Below, piece after piece: positions 1,913-11,051 of a DNA stretch of 56,546 bases. The number at the start of each line of letters is the position of its first letter. Positions within the stretch are counted from its first letter, which is position 1. Source of the DNA: a virus; the IMG/VR virus record IMGVR_UViG_3300025030_000128, positions 1 to 56,546 of that record. One strand, written 5' to 3'. The position numbers and the translations under genes were made by a program. The notes beneath the pieces are model-generated. The model made no database searches. It saw only the letters and a list, made by a program, of their open reading frames with translations, and was not told the DNA's origin.

Positions 1913-1965
1913 GTTTCAACCAACCGCACGACCGGACAAGCCGGTCAGCGGGCGGGCCGTTATGG
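1913..1965 (-). repeat. attC-like site S1 (last of cluster A, degenerate R')
   Basis: Read on the minus strand the site opens with CCATAAC, overlapping the stop codon of the 1960-2169 gene. It contains a GACCGG/CCGGTC hairpin with a CTTGT loop flanked by CCGC/GCGG, and closes with GTTGAAAC. The R'' box is good and the R' box deviates from GTTRRRY, so this is called a degenerate integron attC-like site. Confidence 0.45.
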
Positions 1966-2169
1966 CGCGTCTACGCACGCGGTCAGGACACACCCGGACG
2001 CATCCAGATTGCCGTCATAGTGAAGCTCTACATCCTCGGCGGACCATACCGGGTCTCTTGCGCCTATGTCGAGTTGTAGTGTCACAACGATCTCTTCCGG
2101 GCTCTCCCCGCATTCTCTGGCACGTTCAATTGCCGAGTCCACAGCCTCTTTCAGCTCTTTCAAGTTCAT
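1960..2169 (-). CDS. Small acidic protein of unknown function, 69 aa (cassette gene)
   Basis: The ATG at 2169 is preceded by a GGAG ribosome site; an upstream in-frame ATG at 2214 lies inside the attC-like site S2 and has no such site. The protein starts MNLKELKEAVDSAIERARE and looks like a helical N-terminus followed by a short beta region. I do not recognise a family. It is the last gene of the minus-strand block and sits between attC-like sites S2 and S1, as a gene does in an integron cassette. Confidence 0.7.
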   Translation of the reverse strand: MNLKELKEAVDSAIERARECGESPEEIVVTLQLDIGARDPVWSAEDVELHYDGNLDASGCVLTACVDAP

Positions 2170-2193
2170 AATTTCGTCTCCGTTGGAGGGTGC

Positions 2194-2257
2194 GCCATAA
2201 CCAGAAAAATACACTCTGGCTGCGCTGCGCTTGCAGGTGATTTACTAGCCGTTAGTT
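2194..2257 (-). repeat. attC-like site S2
   Basis: On the minus strand: R'' CTAAC overlapping the upstream stop, spacer, then AAAT-CAC pairing with GTG-T-ATTT (the T is extrahelical), a variable loop, and R' GTTATGG. The four-plus-three base-pair arrangement with one bulged T is the same as in sites S5 and S10, though the bases differ. Confidence 0.65.
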
Positions 2258-2530
2258 TGCTTCCAACATGTCCAACTCGATATGCTGGAGTGCGCCCATG
2301 ATGACTGCCGCCTGATCTACGAGGTCGCGCCGGTCGCTGAACGTCATGTCGTCACGAAATTTACCGCTGAAACAGAGGGTATATTTATCCTGCTCAACCG
2401 GGGCCATAGTCCCGTCATGCCGTCCACAGCAAAAAAAACTCTGTTCGCCCTTGACCATCTCGGATTGTATTTGCCCGTATGGTTGGCACGTAGTTAGATT
2501 CCTCAAGCATTTTTCAGGGTATTTCAACAT
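2252..2530 (-). CDS. Unknown protein, 92 aa (cassette gene)
   Basis: The start at 2530 is chosen because AAAGGA lies 6-7 bases upstream; the longer frame to 2644 overlaps the neighbouring gene. The protein has an FCCGRHDGT segment and an acidic helical C-terminus. No family is recognised. It lies between attC-like sites S3 and S2. Confidence 0.65.
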   Translation of the reverse strand: MLKYPEKCLRNLTTCQPYGQIQSEMVKGEQSFFCCGRHDGTMAPVEQDKYTLCFSGKFRDDMTFSDRRDLVDQAAVIMGALQHIELDMLEAN

Positions 2531-2550
2531 TTGATGTCCTTTCCGGCACC

Positions 2551-2617
2551 GCAAACTAACCAGTGCTCGGAAGCCGCCCGGTGAGGCCTGGCGGTCCACC
2601 GCCCATGCCGTTATCGG
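2551..2617 (-). repeat. attC-like site S3
   Basis: On the minus strand it opens with GATAAC and closes with CACTG-GTTAG. The inner part is GC-rich with an obvious GGCGGT/ACCGCC hairpin, but the canonical L''/L' pairing is less clear than in S2, S5 and S10. Confidence 0.5.
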
Positions 2618-2618
2618 T

Positions 2619-2837
2619 CTACTTCTCTCCCGGCAGCTTCTCATAATCCGACTTTCTGAGATCGGATAGCGCCCTTGTCAAATCCATACTCGCACGCTTG
2701 ATTGCTCCGGTTTCTCTCGGGTATGAATAGGTGTAACTATCAGGCTTCTTCTCTCCGAATTGGCCTTCAAGATTGCTGATTGTAACTTGCAGCCGCTTCA
2801 TTTCGGCCTTCACTTTTTCGAGTCTGATACGTTTCAC
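2619..2837 (-). CDS. Small basic, probably coiled-coil protein, 72 aa (cassette gene)
   Basis: A GTG start at 2837 follows GGAGG closely. The protein opens with KRIRLEKVKAEMKRLQ, a likely amphipathic helix or coiled coil, and ends with a charged helix. Function unknown. It is flanked by attC-like sites S4 and S3. Confidence 0.65.
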   Translation of the reverse strand: MKRIRLEKVKAEMKRLQVTISNLEGQFGEKKPDSYTYSYPRETGAIKRASMDLTRALSDLRKSDYEKLPGEK

Positions 2838-2863
2838 AAATCCTCCTTGCTGGCTACCGGAAT

Positions 2864-2926
2864 CCGATAACCAGCGCTGTGCAGCAGGCCGGAAAAGCCC
2901 GGCTGCTGACGCTTGATCGTTATGCC
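2864..2926 (-). repeat. attC-like site S4
   Basis: On the minus strand: R'' GCATAAC, spacer GATCAA, stem GCGT-CAGCAGCCGG, loop GCTTTT, then CCGG, a bulged C, CTGCTG, an extrahelical C, an imperfect match to GCGT, spacer GCTG and R' GTTATCG. The spacers resemble those of S5 and S10. Confidence 0.65.
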
Positions 2927-3159
2927 CCGCCGGGAAAACATTCGTCCCCGACACAAATTACCTTGGTGTAGTCGTACTGTTTCAATACCGGGAGATTGAC
3001 CGGATCGTTTACCTGCAACCTCGACACTTCGCGCTCCAACCTGCGAATCTCGGCCCATATCTCTACGGGCGTAGCAACCCTTCCGTCGTCGTGGCGGATA
3101 GCTACGCAAACGGGGTCGTCTCTACCCAGATGTTTGTTGCATGGCGACAGATGTAGCAT
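2920..3159 (-). CDS. Unknown protein, 79 aa (cassette gene)
   Basis: The ATG at 3159 follows AGGAGG with good spacing. The sequence contains WAEIRRLEREVSRLQV, a probable coiled coil, and two C-terminal-half cysteines. No family is recognised. The stop overlaps attC-like site S4, and S5 lies just upstream of the start. Confidence 0.7.
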   Translation of the reverse strand: MLHLSPCNKHLGRDDPVCVAIRHDDGRVATPVEIWAEIRRLEREVSRLQVNDPVNLPVLKQYDYTKVICVGDECFPGGA

Positions 3160-3173
3160 TTTACCTCCTGTCT

Positions 3174-3232
3174 GGCATAACCAGCGGGTACACGGGATCG
3201 CTACGCTCACCCGTGACCCTTGTCGTTATGTA
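3174..3232 (-). repeat. attC-like site S5 (best example)
   Basis: On the minus strand: R'' CATAAC; spacer GACAA; L'' GGGT-CAC-GGG; a 13-base variable terminal segment; L' CCC-GTG, extrahelical T, ACCC; spacer GCTG; R' GTTATG. Both R boxes pair over 6 bp and the L boxes over 10 bp around one unpaired T. This is the layout expected of a folded integron attC site. Confidence 0.75.
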
Positions 3233-3237
3233 TAAAA

Positions 3238-3456
3238 TTAATCGTCGTAATTCCACCAAGCATCTTTGATCCCAAATTCCACCGATATACCGTCTTCAGA
3301 TAGAGTAACATCATGTCCGTACTGGTTTTTCGCCTCTCTGTTACCCCTACAATCCGGTTCATCCTGAAACCCGCCTGTCAACCGTTCAATTTCAGCTTTA
3401 TCGGCCTCAGTTTCGGGGGTAATAATTAGAGTTCCATCGTCAAAAGATAATTTCAT
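3238..3456 (-). CDS. Unknown protein with TPETEA motif, 72 aa (cassette gene)
   Basis: The ATG at 3456 follows CGGAGG. The N-terminus MKLSFDDGTLIITPETEAD resembles that of the plus-strand gene at 23515 (MKVELSRDGVLALTPETEA), so the genome carries two members of one small family, on opposite strands. The fold looks like a short beta hairpin plus a helix. Function unknown. It is followed by attC-like site S5. Confidence 0.7.
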   Translation of the reverse strand: MKLSFDDGTLIITPETEADKAEIERLTGGFQDEPDCRGNREAKNQYGHDVTLSEDGISVEFGIKDAWWNYDD

Positions 3457-3471
3457 GTAGCACCTCCGAGA

Positions 3472-3517
3472 TTTATGGGCATCAGTGCTTCACTCACCCG
3501 TGACCATTGTCGTTAAA
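3472..3517 (-). repeat. Truncated attC-like site S6
   Basis: The first half on the minus strand (TTTAAC, then GACAATGGTCACGGGTGAG) is nearly the same as the first half of S5, but no matching second half or GTTAT box follows. It sits directly after the resolvase gene and looks like a half-site left by recombination or deletion. Confidence 0.45.
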
Positions 3518-3974
3518 GATTCTTTCTTCGGCCGTATTCCGCAAGCAAAATTGCCTCGGCTACCCCGTCATGAGGATTACGACATCGCGGCTGAACCAAC
3601 GTCGCCTTCGGGAAAAGATTTTCGCAAACAATAATGCTTGCCCCTTTTCCTTTGTCGGTCCCGGCCAGGATTGCCTTTTTCCATGCCTGCGGGGTTGGCT
3701 CAATAATCACAAAGTCGAGAGCCGTGCAAATACCGAGGATGATCCCACACCCCTTGCCGAACTTGAATGTACTGGCGACCCCCTGTTTCGGCATGGAGTG
3801 GACAAGTTCGACGACAACCGTAATATTTTTGTAAGTCATTCCAGCCGCGCGGAGAAAGTCGGATATCCCCCTGCGTGTTTCCGGCATGGGAATGTGCTCA
3901 AGAAGAAGACCGTCTTCCGTCAGAACAGCGAGCCCGCCCTTTTGTCCGGGGTCTATCCCAATATATGCTTTCAT
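3513..3974 (-). CDS. RuvC-like Holliday junction resolvase
   Basis: This 153-residue protein has the RNase H-fold resolvase pattern: an N-terminal GIDPGQKGG (first catalytic Asp at residue 8), a strand ending VVVE (catalytic Glu about residue 55), and a C-terminal HDGVAEAILLAEYG motif supplying the last acidic residues. In phages such proteins resolve branched DNA during recombination and packaging. Its start overlaps the stop of the metallopeptidase gene (ATGA), so the two are probably co-translated. The half attC-like site S6 follows the stop. Confidence 0.85.
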   Translation of the reverse strand: MKAYIGIDPGQKGGLAVLTEDGLLLEHIPMPETRRGISDFLRAAGMTYKNITVVVELVHSMPKQGVASTFKFGKGCGIILGICTALDFVIIEPTPQAWKKAILAGTDKGKGASIIVCENLFPKATLVQPRCRNPHDGVAEAILLAEYGRRKNL

Positions 3975-5817: not shown

Positions 5818-6753
5818 CTAGAAGAGTTGGTCGGCCAGTTGGCCGTGAAAGTGGTTCTCTGTTTTTGAACAGGCGCATCCACCGATCAGGTCAGCCAGTC
5901 GATAGCTGACGTGCGGGCCGTCAAAGGTAAACCCCCTCTTGCCCTTGTTGCAGTTGTCGTTCAGTGCCATCCAGTCGAGCTTGTCCGGATGGGTGAAGGA
6001 CATCTTGTTGGCGACCAGGTATTCGGTGATGGATCCCGGGCGGCCGTCTCTTTTTCTTGACCGCCTCCAGAGTCCTTCGATCTTCCGGTTGTAGGGTTCG
6101 GCCACCACTTCCACCCGCACGATGCGGCCGAGCTCGTCTTCTGAGAGATCGTCCAGTTCGTGCGGCTTCATGTTTGGGCAGAAGATGCAGCTCGACTTGG
6201 GCGGGACCGGCAAACTGGCTTCGACAATGCGGGCTTTGCACTCTTCCCGATCCCATCCCCAGTCCTGTAGAGGGTAGACGTTGTCGCAGCCCTGAGTGGC
6301 ATGGGCTTTGTCGCCGGCCCGCAGTTGGCGGTATTCCTCCCCCGCCTCGAAGCCGATCGCTTTGATGATGTGACCGCGAATGTTTTCCTTCTCCCACCGT
6401 CTCTGCGGCTGAATCTTCCACTTGTCCGTGCAGCTGCCGCGATTGAACGTGGCCCCCGGAAGAGTGGCGTTCATCACCATGTTCCCTTCGATAGTCGTGT
6501 AGGGGCTATACTTCGGGATGTATTTGACCACGGTGACCGGCGGGAAGTGATGCTTGGCCAAGTACTCTTGTATGATTGGAAGGTAATTGTAGGTTGACTG
6601 CTTCTCTGCCCCGACGTCCGCGAAGAGAATGAAATCCGGGCGGATCCCCCTGGCTACGTAGCCGGCAATGATAGCGGTCGAGTCAACCCCGAGCCCATAG
6701 GCCAGTCCGAGGATCGACTTCTGATTGGTCTCAAACAGGTCAATCTGGCTCAT
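5818..6753 (-). CDS. PP-loop ATPase, PAPS-reductase/DndC-like
   Basis: The 311-residue protein starts at 6753 after AGGAG. LGLAYGLGVDSTAIIAG near the N-terminus is a variant of the SGGxDS PP-loop of the adenine nucleotide alpha hydrolase superfamily, and DFILFADVGAEKQSTYNYL follows as in PAPS-reductase-like proteins. The C-terminal half has a CIFCPNMKP cysteine pair that could bind metal. In phages this family is widespread; proposed roles include nucleotide or DNA modification, and there is no evidence that it reduces sulfate. It overlaps the preceding Cys-rich gene by 14 bases. Confidence 0.75.
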   Translation of the reverse strand: MSQIDLFETNQKSILGLAYGLGVDSTAIIAGYVARGIRPDFILFADVGAEKQSTYNYLPIIQEYLAKHHFPPVTVVKYIPKYSPYTTIEGNMVMNATLPGATFNRGSCTDKWKIQPQRRWEKENIRGHIIKAIGFEAGEEYRQLRAGDKAHATQGCDNVYPLQDWGWDREECKARIVEASLPVPPKSSCIFCPNMKPHELDDLSEDELGRIVRVEVVAEPYNRKIEGLWRRSRKRDGRPGSITEYLVANKMSFTHPDKLDWMALNDNCNKGKRGFTFDGPHVSYRLADLIGGCACSKTENHFHGQLADQLF

Positions 6754-8387: not shown

Positions 8388-8957
8388 TTAATAAAGGGCT
8401 GAATAAATGACAGCACGTTCATCGCTATAGCCGCGTTTTATTCTGTCATAGATTCTGTCTCTCTTAATTCCGTAATGTTCCGCCCATTGAGTTATATTTT
8501 TTGTTACGCCCTCAATTGTAATTAAGTGGCATTGTCGGCTATTGTTACCTTGTTCTTTTTTTGTAGACCACTTAACATTTTCCGGCTCATAGTTTCCGTC
8601 GTTTTTAATGCGGTCAACTGAATGATCTCTTGATGGACGCTGACCAATATCTTTTTTGAATGCTAGGAAATCGTTCTTCCATTTATCGCAAACGACAATT
8701 CCCCTTCCGCCATAATTATTATAGTGCACGTGATTCTTATTATAGCAACGCTCTAACATTTTCGACCATAAACGGAAAAGGTTTGTCTTTGTTTCGTTGT
8801 GCTTTACCCTGTTACAACCACAGGATTTTGAAAGCCCGCGGGTAAGCGAGCTTTTGTATATATCTTTGACGACACCGCAATCGCATTTGCACGTAAGGTG
8901 ATGTTTCTTTGTGCTAATCCCGATGACTAAGAGTTTTCCATATTTATTTCCTATCAT
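8388..8957 (-). CDS. HNH homing-type endonuclease
   Basis: This 189-residue protein (ATG at 8957 after GGGAG) has an N-terminal CKCDCG...CGC cysteine segment, then YNNYGGRGIVVCDKW and DHSVDRIKNDGNYEPENVKW, the HNH/NUMOD-type pattern of phage homing endonucleases, and a C-terminal helix-turn-helix-like end (ITQWAEHYGIKRDRIYDRIK). It is clearly more AT-rich than the genes around it, a sign of recent arrival. Its start lies within the end of the upstream gene and its end abuts a gene remnant. Confidence 0.85.
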   Translation of the reverse strand: MIGNKYGKLLVIGISTKKHHLTCKCDCGVVKDIYKSSLTRGLSKSCGCNRVKHNETKTNLFRLWSKMLERCYNKNHVHYNNYGGRGIVVCDKWKNDFLAFKKDIGQRPSRDHSVDRIKNDGNYEPENVKWSTKKEQGNNSRQCHLITIEGVTKNITQWAEHYGIKRDRIYDRIKRGYSDERAVIYSALY

Positions 8958-9772: not shown

Positions 9773-9822
9773 GGTTTCAACTTTCTCATGGAGCGGACAA
9801 GCCGCTCATGCTTTAGTTATCC
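9773..9822 (-). repeat. attC-like site S8 (cluster B)
   Basis: On the minus strand: GATAAC, spacer, GCAT-GAGCGG, loop CTTGT, CCGCTC, extrahelical C, ATGA, and a closing GTTGAAAC. The bulged base falls in the same place relative to the stem as in S2, S5 and S10. Its R' matches the one of S1. Confidence 0.55.
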
Positions 9823-9824
9823 TT

Positions 9825-10196
9825 CTATTTGCCTCGGAACATATCACCCACAATTTTAAACGCTTGTTCCAGCCGCTGCATTGCTTGTTCGGCCTGTAAT
9901 CGCTTGCGTTCAGCCTTGGCTACCCTTCGTTTTTCCACATTTTCAGGCTTCCAGTATGTGGCGTGGCGTTTATCCTGGATTGCCTTTTTCTTGGTTGCAA
10001 TAGATTCCTGAATCGTTGCCTCTTTTTCATAATCAACCATCCGCCGCGCCTGGTTGCCCTCTTCACAAACAGTGCAAAGAGCATAGTCCAGTTGGTTGTG
10101 ATATGTCGGCACCACGCAGCAATCCTCACAGACAGGTTCACCGCAAATATGACAGGTGAAATCGGTTTTATTCTCTTCGCAAACGTGGCAAATCAT
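9825..10196 (-). CDS. Zinc-finger protein with coiled-coil tail, 123 aa (cassette gene)
   Basis: The ATG at 10196 follows GGGAGAAG. The first 60 residues carry four CxxC pairs (CHVC, CHIC, CEDC, CTVC), a B-box-like or double zinc ribbon, and the rest is a long basic helix. It sits between attC-like sites S9 and S8. Probably binds nucleic acid or a protein partner; function unknown. Confidence 0.7.
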   Translation of the reverse strand: MICHVCEENKTDFTCHICGEPVCEDCCVVPTYHNQLDYALCTVCEEGNQARRMVDYEKEATIQESIATKKKAIQDKRHATYWKPENVEKRRVAKAERKRLQAEQAMQRLEQAFKIVGDMFRGK

Positions 10197-10226
10197 GAAA
10201 ACTTCTCCCTCGATTGCCACCCCGAA

Positions 10227-10280
10227 GGATAACAATCGGCTGGACGGGTCAAGCCCGTCATCCTCTAGCCGTTATGGCGC
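10227..10280 (-). repeat. attC-like site S9b
   Basis: On the minus strand: CATAAC, spacer, GACGGG, loop CTTGA, CCCGTC, extrahelical C, AGCC, spacer GATT, GTTATC. R'' and R' pair over 5 bp. A second hairpin directly on its 5' side (10271-10320, TGGCGCA/TGCGCCA after CTTTAAC) may be a separate or composite site. Confidence 0.6.
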
Positions 10281-10311
10281 AAGGCCAGCATCGACCCTGC
10301 GCCACGTTCAG

Positions 10312-10530
10312 TTAAAGCAAAATACCCCAATCTTCGGACAGCATATCGAGATTGTTCGGGTTCCACGGAAACAGTTTTCCGGCAACGTCGCTCATGTAAA
10401 TGTACGAGTGTCCCATTTTGCTGTTTTCGTCGCAAACCTGAAGAGCTAACCACATTCCCTTGCCATTCCAGCCATCACGACTTACTTTGCTTCCGAGCTT
10501 GAGTGCTTCCAACGCTTGTCCGAAATTCAT
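10312..10530 (-). CDS. DUF2829 protein, Tad2-like anti-Thoeris candidate (cassette gene)
   Basis: The 72-residue protein (ATG at 10530 after AAAGGAG) matches the DUF2829 pattern end to end: NFGQALEALKLGSKVSRDGW, NGKGMWL, then a YIYM strand, FPWNPNNLDMLSEDWGIL. Members of this family include Tad2, which binds and sequesters the signalling nucleotide of type I Thoeris defence. That function is established for some members and only inferred here. The gene lies between attC-like sites S10 and S9, so it sits in a cassette-like unit. It is near the short end of the family's length. Confidence 0.75.
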   Translation of the reverse strand: MNFGQALEALKLGSKVSRDGWNGKGMWLALQVCDENSKMGHSYIYMSDVAGKLFPWNPNNLDMLSEDWGILL

Positions 10531-10560
10531 ACTGTTCTCCTTTGTAGTTTGGTTGCCCAT

Positions 10561-10623
10561 GCGCCATAACCAGCGCATAGACACCGGCTCCCGCTGGTCG
10601 CGGGTCATGCTTGTCGTTATCCC
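10561..10623 (-). repeat. attC-like site S10
   Basis: On the minus strand: GATAAC; spacer GACAA; GCAT-GAC; inner hairpin CCGC/GCGG; GTC, extrahelical T, ATGC; spacer GCTG; GTTATG. Spacers and bulge are identical to S5 while both stem segments have changed in a paired way, so folding seems to be conserved. Confidence 0.75.
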
Positions 10624-11051
10624 TGATGGTGTAAGTAGCGCCCAATCTTAGAGTGCTTCACTTGCCGGGCTGCCTGAATCCGGCCAGAATCAATATCCTT
10701 CCCTGCATATTGCCCAGCGGCTAACAGGTCTAGCGCGGCCAGCACATCACCGCATTCGCGCTCCAACAGCTCCCTATTAGTTGGGCCTCCGTCAGGGTGC
10801 CGGGACTCGTAGCCATGCCTGAGAATTTTCCCGACAGCCTGAATTACCTCGCCGCATTCTTCCGCCAATAGTGCAAGTCGTTCGACCTCCGCAAGGGAAA
10901 GGAACGGGATAACCAGTGAATCGACCGGAGGTTTATCCTTGTCGCACTGGCACTGCATGGTTGATGTATCTACCGTCGATTTACACATTTCGTTCTCCCG
11001 GTCATTCACAGACCCGTTAAATAGATCCCTGGCCCCATTAAATCTCCGCAT
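10617..11051 (-). CDS. MazG-like nucleotide pyrophosphohydrolase
   Basis: The core LALLAEECGEVIQAVGKI with a later ELLERECGDVLAALDLL gives the EExxE...ExxD metal-binding pattern of MazG-type enzymes, which hydrolyse NTPs or dNTPs to monophosphates. ATG at 11051 follows CAGGAG (144 residues); an ATG at 10988 after GGGAG would give 123 residues and is an equal choice. A short Cys pair near residue 34 is unexplained. The stop overlaps attC-like site S10, and a long structured noncoding region lies upstream. Confidence 0.75.
   Translation of the reverse strand: MRRFNGARDLFNGSVNDRENEMCKSTVDTSTMQCQCDKDKPPVDSLVIPFLSLAEVERLALLAEECGEVIQAVGKILRHGYESRHPDGGPTNRELLERECGDVLAALDLLAAGQYAGKDIDSGRIQAARQVKHSKIGRYLHHQG

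Follow-up and report, generated by a model that had tools for sequence, protein, structure and literature searches.

Integrase-less integron-type cassette arrays with genes inverted relative to attC in a podovirus-like phage

Background

Integrons are regarded as bacterial gene-capture devices, whose cassettes are expressed from a promoter beside intI. The sedentary chromosomal and class 1 integrons of bacteria resemble the phage systems studied here in attC anatomy, in an R box divided between G and TT, and in the TIGR02249 integrase found in viral relatives. They differ in that bacterial cassette genes are co-directional with attC (51 of 55 in our count), whereas the genes of the phage set are mostly opposed to attC and read toward intI. 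In phages, arrays of attC sites and cassettes without an integrase (CALINs) have already been published, with methyltransferases among their cargo, and recombination by IntI1 has been shown for five of six phage attC sites (Qi et al. 2023, PMC9892861). Few arrays are reported in that study, and neither genes opposed to attC nor the "leader attC" reported below is described there. The array of Tetrasphaera phage TJE1 differs from our locus in having genes that run in the same direction as attC. The "reverse integron" of Treponema denticola is alike in that intI and the cassette genes point the same way, but this type is defined by the orientation of the integrase gene (PMC4909258); in the phages it is the genes that are inverted relative to attC itself, with the attC/IntI polarity remaining canonical.

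We analysed a stretch of 56,546 bases, the IMG/VR virus record IMGVR_UViG_3300025030_000128, which is referred to below as the window. The record is podovirus-like, with podovirus-type structural genes for a portal/head-tail adaptor, an internal virion protein and a terminase.

Two arrays of small genes and structured spacers

Within a long leftward (minus-strand) accessory region of the window, small genes alternate with structured spacers in two clusters, namely array A (1914-3518, five cassettes) and array B (9775-11022, three cassettes). Their sites and genes are as follows.

1914-1965, plus strand: attC S1, end site of array A; R'' TTTCAAC, extrahelical C, 6-bp stem GACCGG/CCGGTC, R' GTTATGG
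1960-2169, minus strand: A1 gene, 69 aa, no assigned function; TAA stop inside the R' box
2195-2257, plus strand: attC S2, stem and bulge anatomy weaker
2252-2530, minus strand: A2 gene, about 92 aa, no assigned function; stop inside the R' box
2554-2616, plus strand: attC S3, R boxes good, stem weak
2619-2837, minus strand: A3 gene, 72 aa, no assigned function
2865-2925, plus strand: attC S4, scored at 15.4 bits by the bacterial attC model, rank 2 in the window
2920-3159, minus strand: A4 gene, about 79 aa, no assigned function; stop inside the R' box
3175-3231, plus strand: attC S5, scored at 24.7 bits (E 5e-4) by the bacterial attC model, rank 1 in the window
3238-3456, minus strand: A5 gene, 72 aa, no assigned function
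3476-3518, plus strand: S6, decayed attC adjoining the RuvC-like gene; missing the AAC of R'' and part of its left arm but with the right half retained
3513-3974, minus strand: RuvC-like Holliday junction resolvase, flanking array A and not a cassette
9775-9822, plus strand: attC S8, end site of array B; R'' TTTCAAC, stem CAT-G-GAGCGG-A
9825-10196, minus strand: B1 gene, about 123 aa, no assigned function; cysteine pairs suggest a zinc ribbon
10227-10277, plus strand: attC S9
10312-10530, minus strand: B2 gene, Tad2-like (PF11195), Thoeris anti-defence family
10564-10622, plus strand: attC S10, 93% identical to a site in the unrelated phage contig L176
10617-10988, minus strand: B3 gene, weakly MazG-like, fused in frame to a leader peptide encoded by S11
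10907-11022, plus strand: attC S11, the "leader attC", 116 nt, long and strong; stem AAT-C-GACCGG-A

A PAPS-reductase-family gene (5818-6753) and an HNH endonuclease gene (8388-8957) lie near array B and outside it. An R'' box TTTCAAC opens the array-end site on the gene-downstream side at 1914 and 9775 of the window and also in phage contig L179 (8043-8092), and such an end site may mark the original insertion point.

No match to the tyrosine recombinases (PF00589) is detected anywhere in the 56.5-kb record, which may be incomplete; this agrees with the original prediction, for which no integron integrase was found. The record lacks the intI gene and attI of a complete integron, and its attC sites lie two or more to a stretch of a few kb with no intI nearby. 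Arrays A and B are thus integrase-less integron-type cassette arrays (CALINs).

Evidence that the spacers are attC sites

On the plus strand the sites begin with R'' TAAC, a 5-nt spacer (CAGCG or CAGTG in several of them), 3 bp, an extrahelical base (EHB), 6 bp and a loop. A second extrahelical base, A or G, is usual after the 6 bp, and the order R''-5-3-EHB-6-EHB is shown in nearly all sites. The return arm is followed by a spacer of 5-9 nt (CTTGTC in S5 and S10) and an R' box of GTTAT type rather than GTTRRRY, with the AAC/GTT core present; first-pass attC finders using strict GTTRRRY boxes overlooked most of these GTTAT-type sites. The stem with extrahelical bases on one arm is clear in S1, S4, S5, S8, S9, S10 and S11, weaker in S2, and absent in S3 and S6. 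The attC plan predicted earlier for the spacers of array A therefore holds for most of them but not for S3, which has a poor stem, or for S6, which is decayed, and because of these two part of the array may be inert. It had also been noticed that S5 and S10, read on the minus strand, have identical spacers and an identical bulged base; this is correct, and the outer stem stays paired although its sequence is GGGT/ACCC in one and GCAT/ATGC in the other.

The strongest test for attC, which is independent of the hairpin, is given by the ends of the cassettes. If a cassette is excised as a circle with one attC, its R'' must complement the far end of its own unit, hundreds of bases away. In seven of the eight cassettes the R'' box is reverse-complementary to the other end of its own cassette over 8-11 nt, at the following positions.

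Array A: 1959/2201 (10 nt), 2251/2560 (10), 2610/2871 (8), 2919/3181 (8)
Array B: 9816/10233 (10 nt), 10271/10570 (11), 10616/10913 (8)

Compared with block shuffles, four own-end matches of at least 10 nt are observed against 0.11 expected, and seven of at least 8 nt against 1.4 expected. They are confined to the two clusters, and the end sequences differ among most cassettes. In addition, when the halves of the nine sites are re-dealt, left halves pair less well with right halves of other sites than with those of their own (p = 2e-5). This test replaced the counting of base pairs, since a register chosen by pairing would make such counts circular; composite alignments for counting were made and left uncounted.

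An independent covariance model was built from 34 attC sites, all from bacterial chromosomal integrons located through their IntI; it is our own model and not that of IntegronFinder. Among all its matches in the window S5 comes first (24.7 bits, E 5e-4) and S4 second (15.4 bits, E 0.1), with weak matches to S8 and S10. S5 is the only site individually significant with this model and S4 is borderline, the others being identified by anatomy and end complementarity. As controls, the plasmid R388 scores 58 bits and known attC sites of Shewanella and Vibrio phages score 10-24 bits, so the scores in the window fall in the range of accepted phage attC. A second model made from phage sites acquired a poor automatic structure and was not used. 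The sites have no match in Rfam. On the whole, the sites are where they were predicted, and the spacers of both clusters are supported as integron-type attC sites bounding small gene cassettes.

Orientation of the genes relative to attC

The attC polarity had been placed on the minus strand in the original prediction, with the genes oriented as in host cassettes. Our analysis reverses both points. It is the plus-strand left arm that carries the extrahelical bases, the half-pairing score being 64.6 with the base there and 46.7 with it on the right arm, and the matches of the bacterial model are likewise on the plus strand, opposite to the strand predicted, with S5 and S4 at the top as just described. 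The eight cassette genes all lie on the minus strand, antiparallel to attC, while in cassettes of bacterial type the gene is co-directional with its attC. The attC body lies on the start-codon side of the gene, and the stop is usually in or beside the R' box at the other end of the cassette. The genes are inverted relative to the attC polarity given by both the bacterial attC model and the asymmetry of the extrahelical bases.

The spacer dialect of the window, TAACCAGYG...CTTGTCGTTA, was also found by an IMG/VR search in other phages. Arrays of this dialect are present in contigs L187, L186, L178, L179 and L182, the last of which comes from a 75-kb virus with ten sites at 25-47 bits. Several dialect contigs carry portal, primase or helicase genes, and the genes are mostly opposed to attC in these phages too. 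For an overall view we counted orientations by one objective rule on attC-model matches, in bacterial integron loci and in IMG/VR contigs with IntI (the best 80 of 270 stretches encoding IntI relatives). Same and opposed cassettes number 51 and 4 in bacterial integrons but 13 and 52 in these best 80 IMG/VR contigs (Fisher p 9e-17); by the majority orientation of each contig, the counts are 23 and 0 in bacteria against 3 and 26 in IMG/VR (p 1.5e-11). Among the contigs tested, L125, L137, L132 and L103 encode phage tail proteins. Opposed-strand genes with Pfam support include PAPS_reduct, Mom, N6_N4_Mtase and DNA_methylase (C5). Noise in ORF calling is ruled out as the source of the opposed genes, since bacterial loci scored by this rule come out at 51:4 and Pfam-matched genes are among those opposed. 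The inversion of genes against attC looks general. Its presence in this and many other phages, and not in bacteria, suggests an integron exchange system peculiar to phages.

The leader attC and the cargo of the arrays

The loop of S11, read on the gene strand, contains an RBS and a start codon and encodes the leader MCKSTVDTSTMQCQCDKDKPPVDSLV. This short reading frame, ending in ...PVDSLV, continues through the R box and is in frame with the adjacent gene. Such in-frame fusions are seen in seven of seven leader-attC cases, the window and six other phage contigs, with six different genes. The leader is nearly identical in the window, L275 and L276, and the gene that follows it in L276 is different. 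No precedent for a leader attC was found in the papers searched. The nearest idea is the short ORF in attI1.

As for the cargo, B2 matches PF11195 with 84.2 bits (E 9e-24; curated cut-off 25) and has 39% identity to a protein annotated as Tad2 in phage SPO1L3, and it is predicted from its sequence to be a Tad2-like anti-Thoeris protein. B3 has a weak MazG-like match (E 2e-4), and A1-A5 and B1 have no Pfam match above the cut-off. In other phages, DNA methylases, Mom and PAPS-reductase-like genes are frequent in the arrays of L187, L182/L285/L286, L125, L100 and L132. The PAPS-reductase family, to which the gene at 5818-6753 of the window belongs, is a recurrent cassette gene in such arrays.

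Exchange of cassettes between phages

Parts of cassettes are shared between otherwise different phages, and the edges of the shared blocks fall at the R' box as defined by the attC polarity. Block edges are found at 10269 and 10619 for B2/S10 of the window against L272, at 11019 for B3/S11 against L275, at 967 for L170 against L186, and at 974 for L170 against L188. L275 comes from a distant relative of the window phage (terminase 48% and portal 52% identity) and has the B3 cassette in common with it and, by tblastn, no other cassette gene. None of the other dialect phages tested gives a match to the window terminase, although one of them, G003, has an internal virion protein with a 40% match to that of the window. 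Single-protein scans of IMG/VR gave no close relatives of the window phage in which cassette gain or loss might be seen.

The comparison with L272 shows more than a simple crossover. Window 10269-10619 and L272 4621-5131 have the same attC, 5' UTR and 3' UTR (93-96%), but the ORF between ATG and TAA differs, being Tad2-like in the window (B2) and a RyR-domain protein in L272. For this swap inside conserved cassette flanks, crossover at R' alone is insufficient. The same is true of L276, where the leader attC is that of the window but the junction with another gene is at the opposite box.

The exchange was originally proposed to take place with host integrons. As far as can be read from the sequences, exchange is indeed visible, with other phages as partners and not host integrons: no plausible attC of the window dialect is found in 398 Pseudomonadota genomes, which give chance-like matches only.

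Integron integrases of viruses

A representative of the viral IntI belongs fully to TIGR02249, with 474 bits against a cut-off of 265. In a FastTree analysis, in which the viral set is the best 80 of 270, 40 viral IntI form one virus-only clade with support 100. After adding 30 bacterial IntI, namely the best matches to a viral IntI among the 398 Pseudomonadota genomes, the clade remains virus-only, with 50 rows and support 99. This addition rules out that the clade is an artefact of taking the 80 best IntI1 matches. Most but not all viral IntI fall inside it, for a sampled viral set and added bacterial IntI taken from Pseudomonadota genomes.

One 39.8-kb virus record (L188/L287) has an IntI (L279 1217-1945), canonical attC and one attC of the window dialect, and is a possible link between IntI-bearing and integrase-less phages. 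Virus Rctr41k (KX853513.1; 4680-5678 and 6641-10101), a phage from a DAMO/anammox enrichment, likewise has a true integron integrase (TIGR02249, 383 bits) with attC-like sites downstream, but in it the attC-like sites and the genes are both on the plus strand. Qi et al. 2023 (PMC9892861) do not list it in their table of complete integrons in phages.

Interpretation of the arrays

It is highly probable that both clusters are phage-associated CALINs with genes inverted relative to attC, served by IntI in trans and acting as an exchangeable store of accessory genes. The integrase would be supplied by the host, or by a co-infecting or resident phage. It would act on the folded bottom strand of attC, here the gene-coding minus strand, cutting it between G and TT, and cassettes would move as circles. 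Expression of the arrays would be part of the leftward operon of the phage. The store would include counter-defence genes, such as the Tad2-like gene here and the DNA methylases, Mom and PAPS-reductase-like genes in arrays of other phages.

The minus strand taken by itself does look canonical, with an RBS, a gene, a stop in the TAAC box, a stem and GTTA, and L276 and the window have different genes fused to the S11 leader at the R' of the minus strand. These features would fit ordinary host-integron cassettes captured by the phage, with co-directional genes and the minus strand as attC top strand. Such a capture is very unlikely, given that the independent model and the extrahelical bases put attC on the plus strand, that the block shared with L272 comprises the S10 body with the UTR of the downstream gene and ends at the plus-strand R', that same-dialect phage sites of 33-47 bits are unambiguously opposed to their genes, and that the Pseudomonadota genomes hold no plausible site of the dialect. 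Transcription terminators or RNA processing hairpins between operon genes, with no role in recombination, would also be intergenic, 3' of stop codons and foldable; the conserved unpaired spacers and bulges, the complementarity of ends across genes, the match to a model of DNA recombination sites and the missing Rfam match make this explanation scarcely credible.

A more serious alternative, though still an unlikely one, is that the arrays are relics, inherited from an IntI-bearing phage by mosaic homologous recombination and now immobile, with genes swapped through homology of the attC/UTR flanks. The degenerate S6 and S3, the record without IntI and the ORF swap between conserved UTRs in L272 are all in accordance with it, but seven cassettes retain matching R''/R' ends, most stems are intact, and several pairs of phages have shared blocks that end at R' boxes.

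Beyond the preferred reading of the two clusters as CALINs mobilised in trans, we lean slightly towards the existence of a phage integron lineage. It would have a virus-restricted IntI clade, a canonical attC polarity, inverted genes that read toward intI within phage operons, an exchangeable counter-defence library common to unrelated phages, and integrase-less satellites mobilised in trans, including a leader attC that adds a start codon and an N-terminal peptide. Anti-oriented cassettes, the leader attC and the virus-restricted IntI clade appear to be undescribed in the papers searched; a search of open-access PMC papers gave nothing further on phage or viral integrons with inverted cassettes, and the novelty is provisional.

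If this is true, phages would run a site-specific cassette economy of their own, plausibly for counter-defence genes, and the question is raised why in phages the recombinogenic strand is also the one that codes. New anti-defence genes could then be sought in any small gene flanked by sites of this kind, and the phage arrays, with their DNA methylases, Mom and PAPS-reductase-like genes, look like a mining ground for counter-defence genes.
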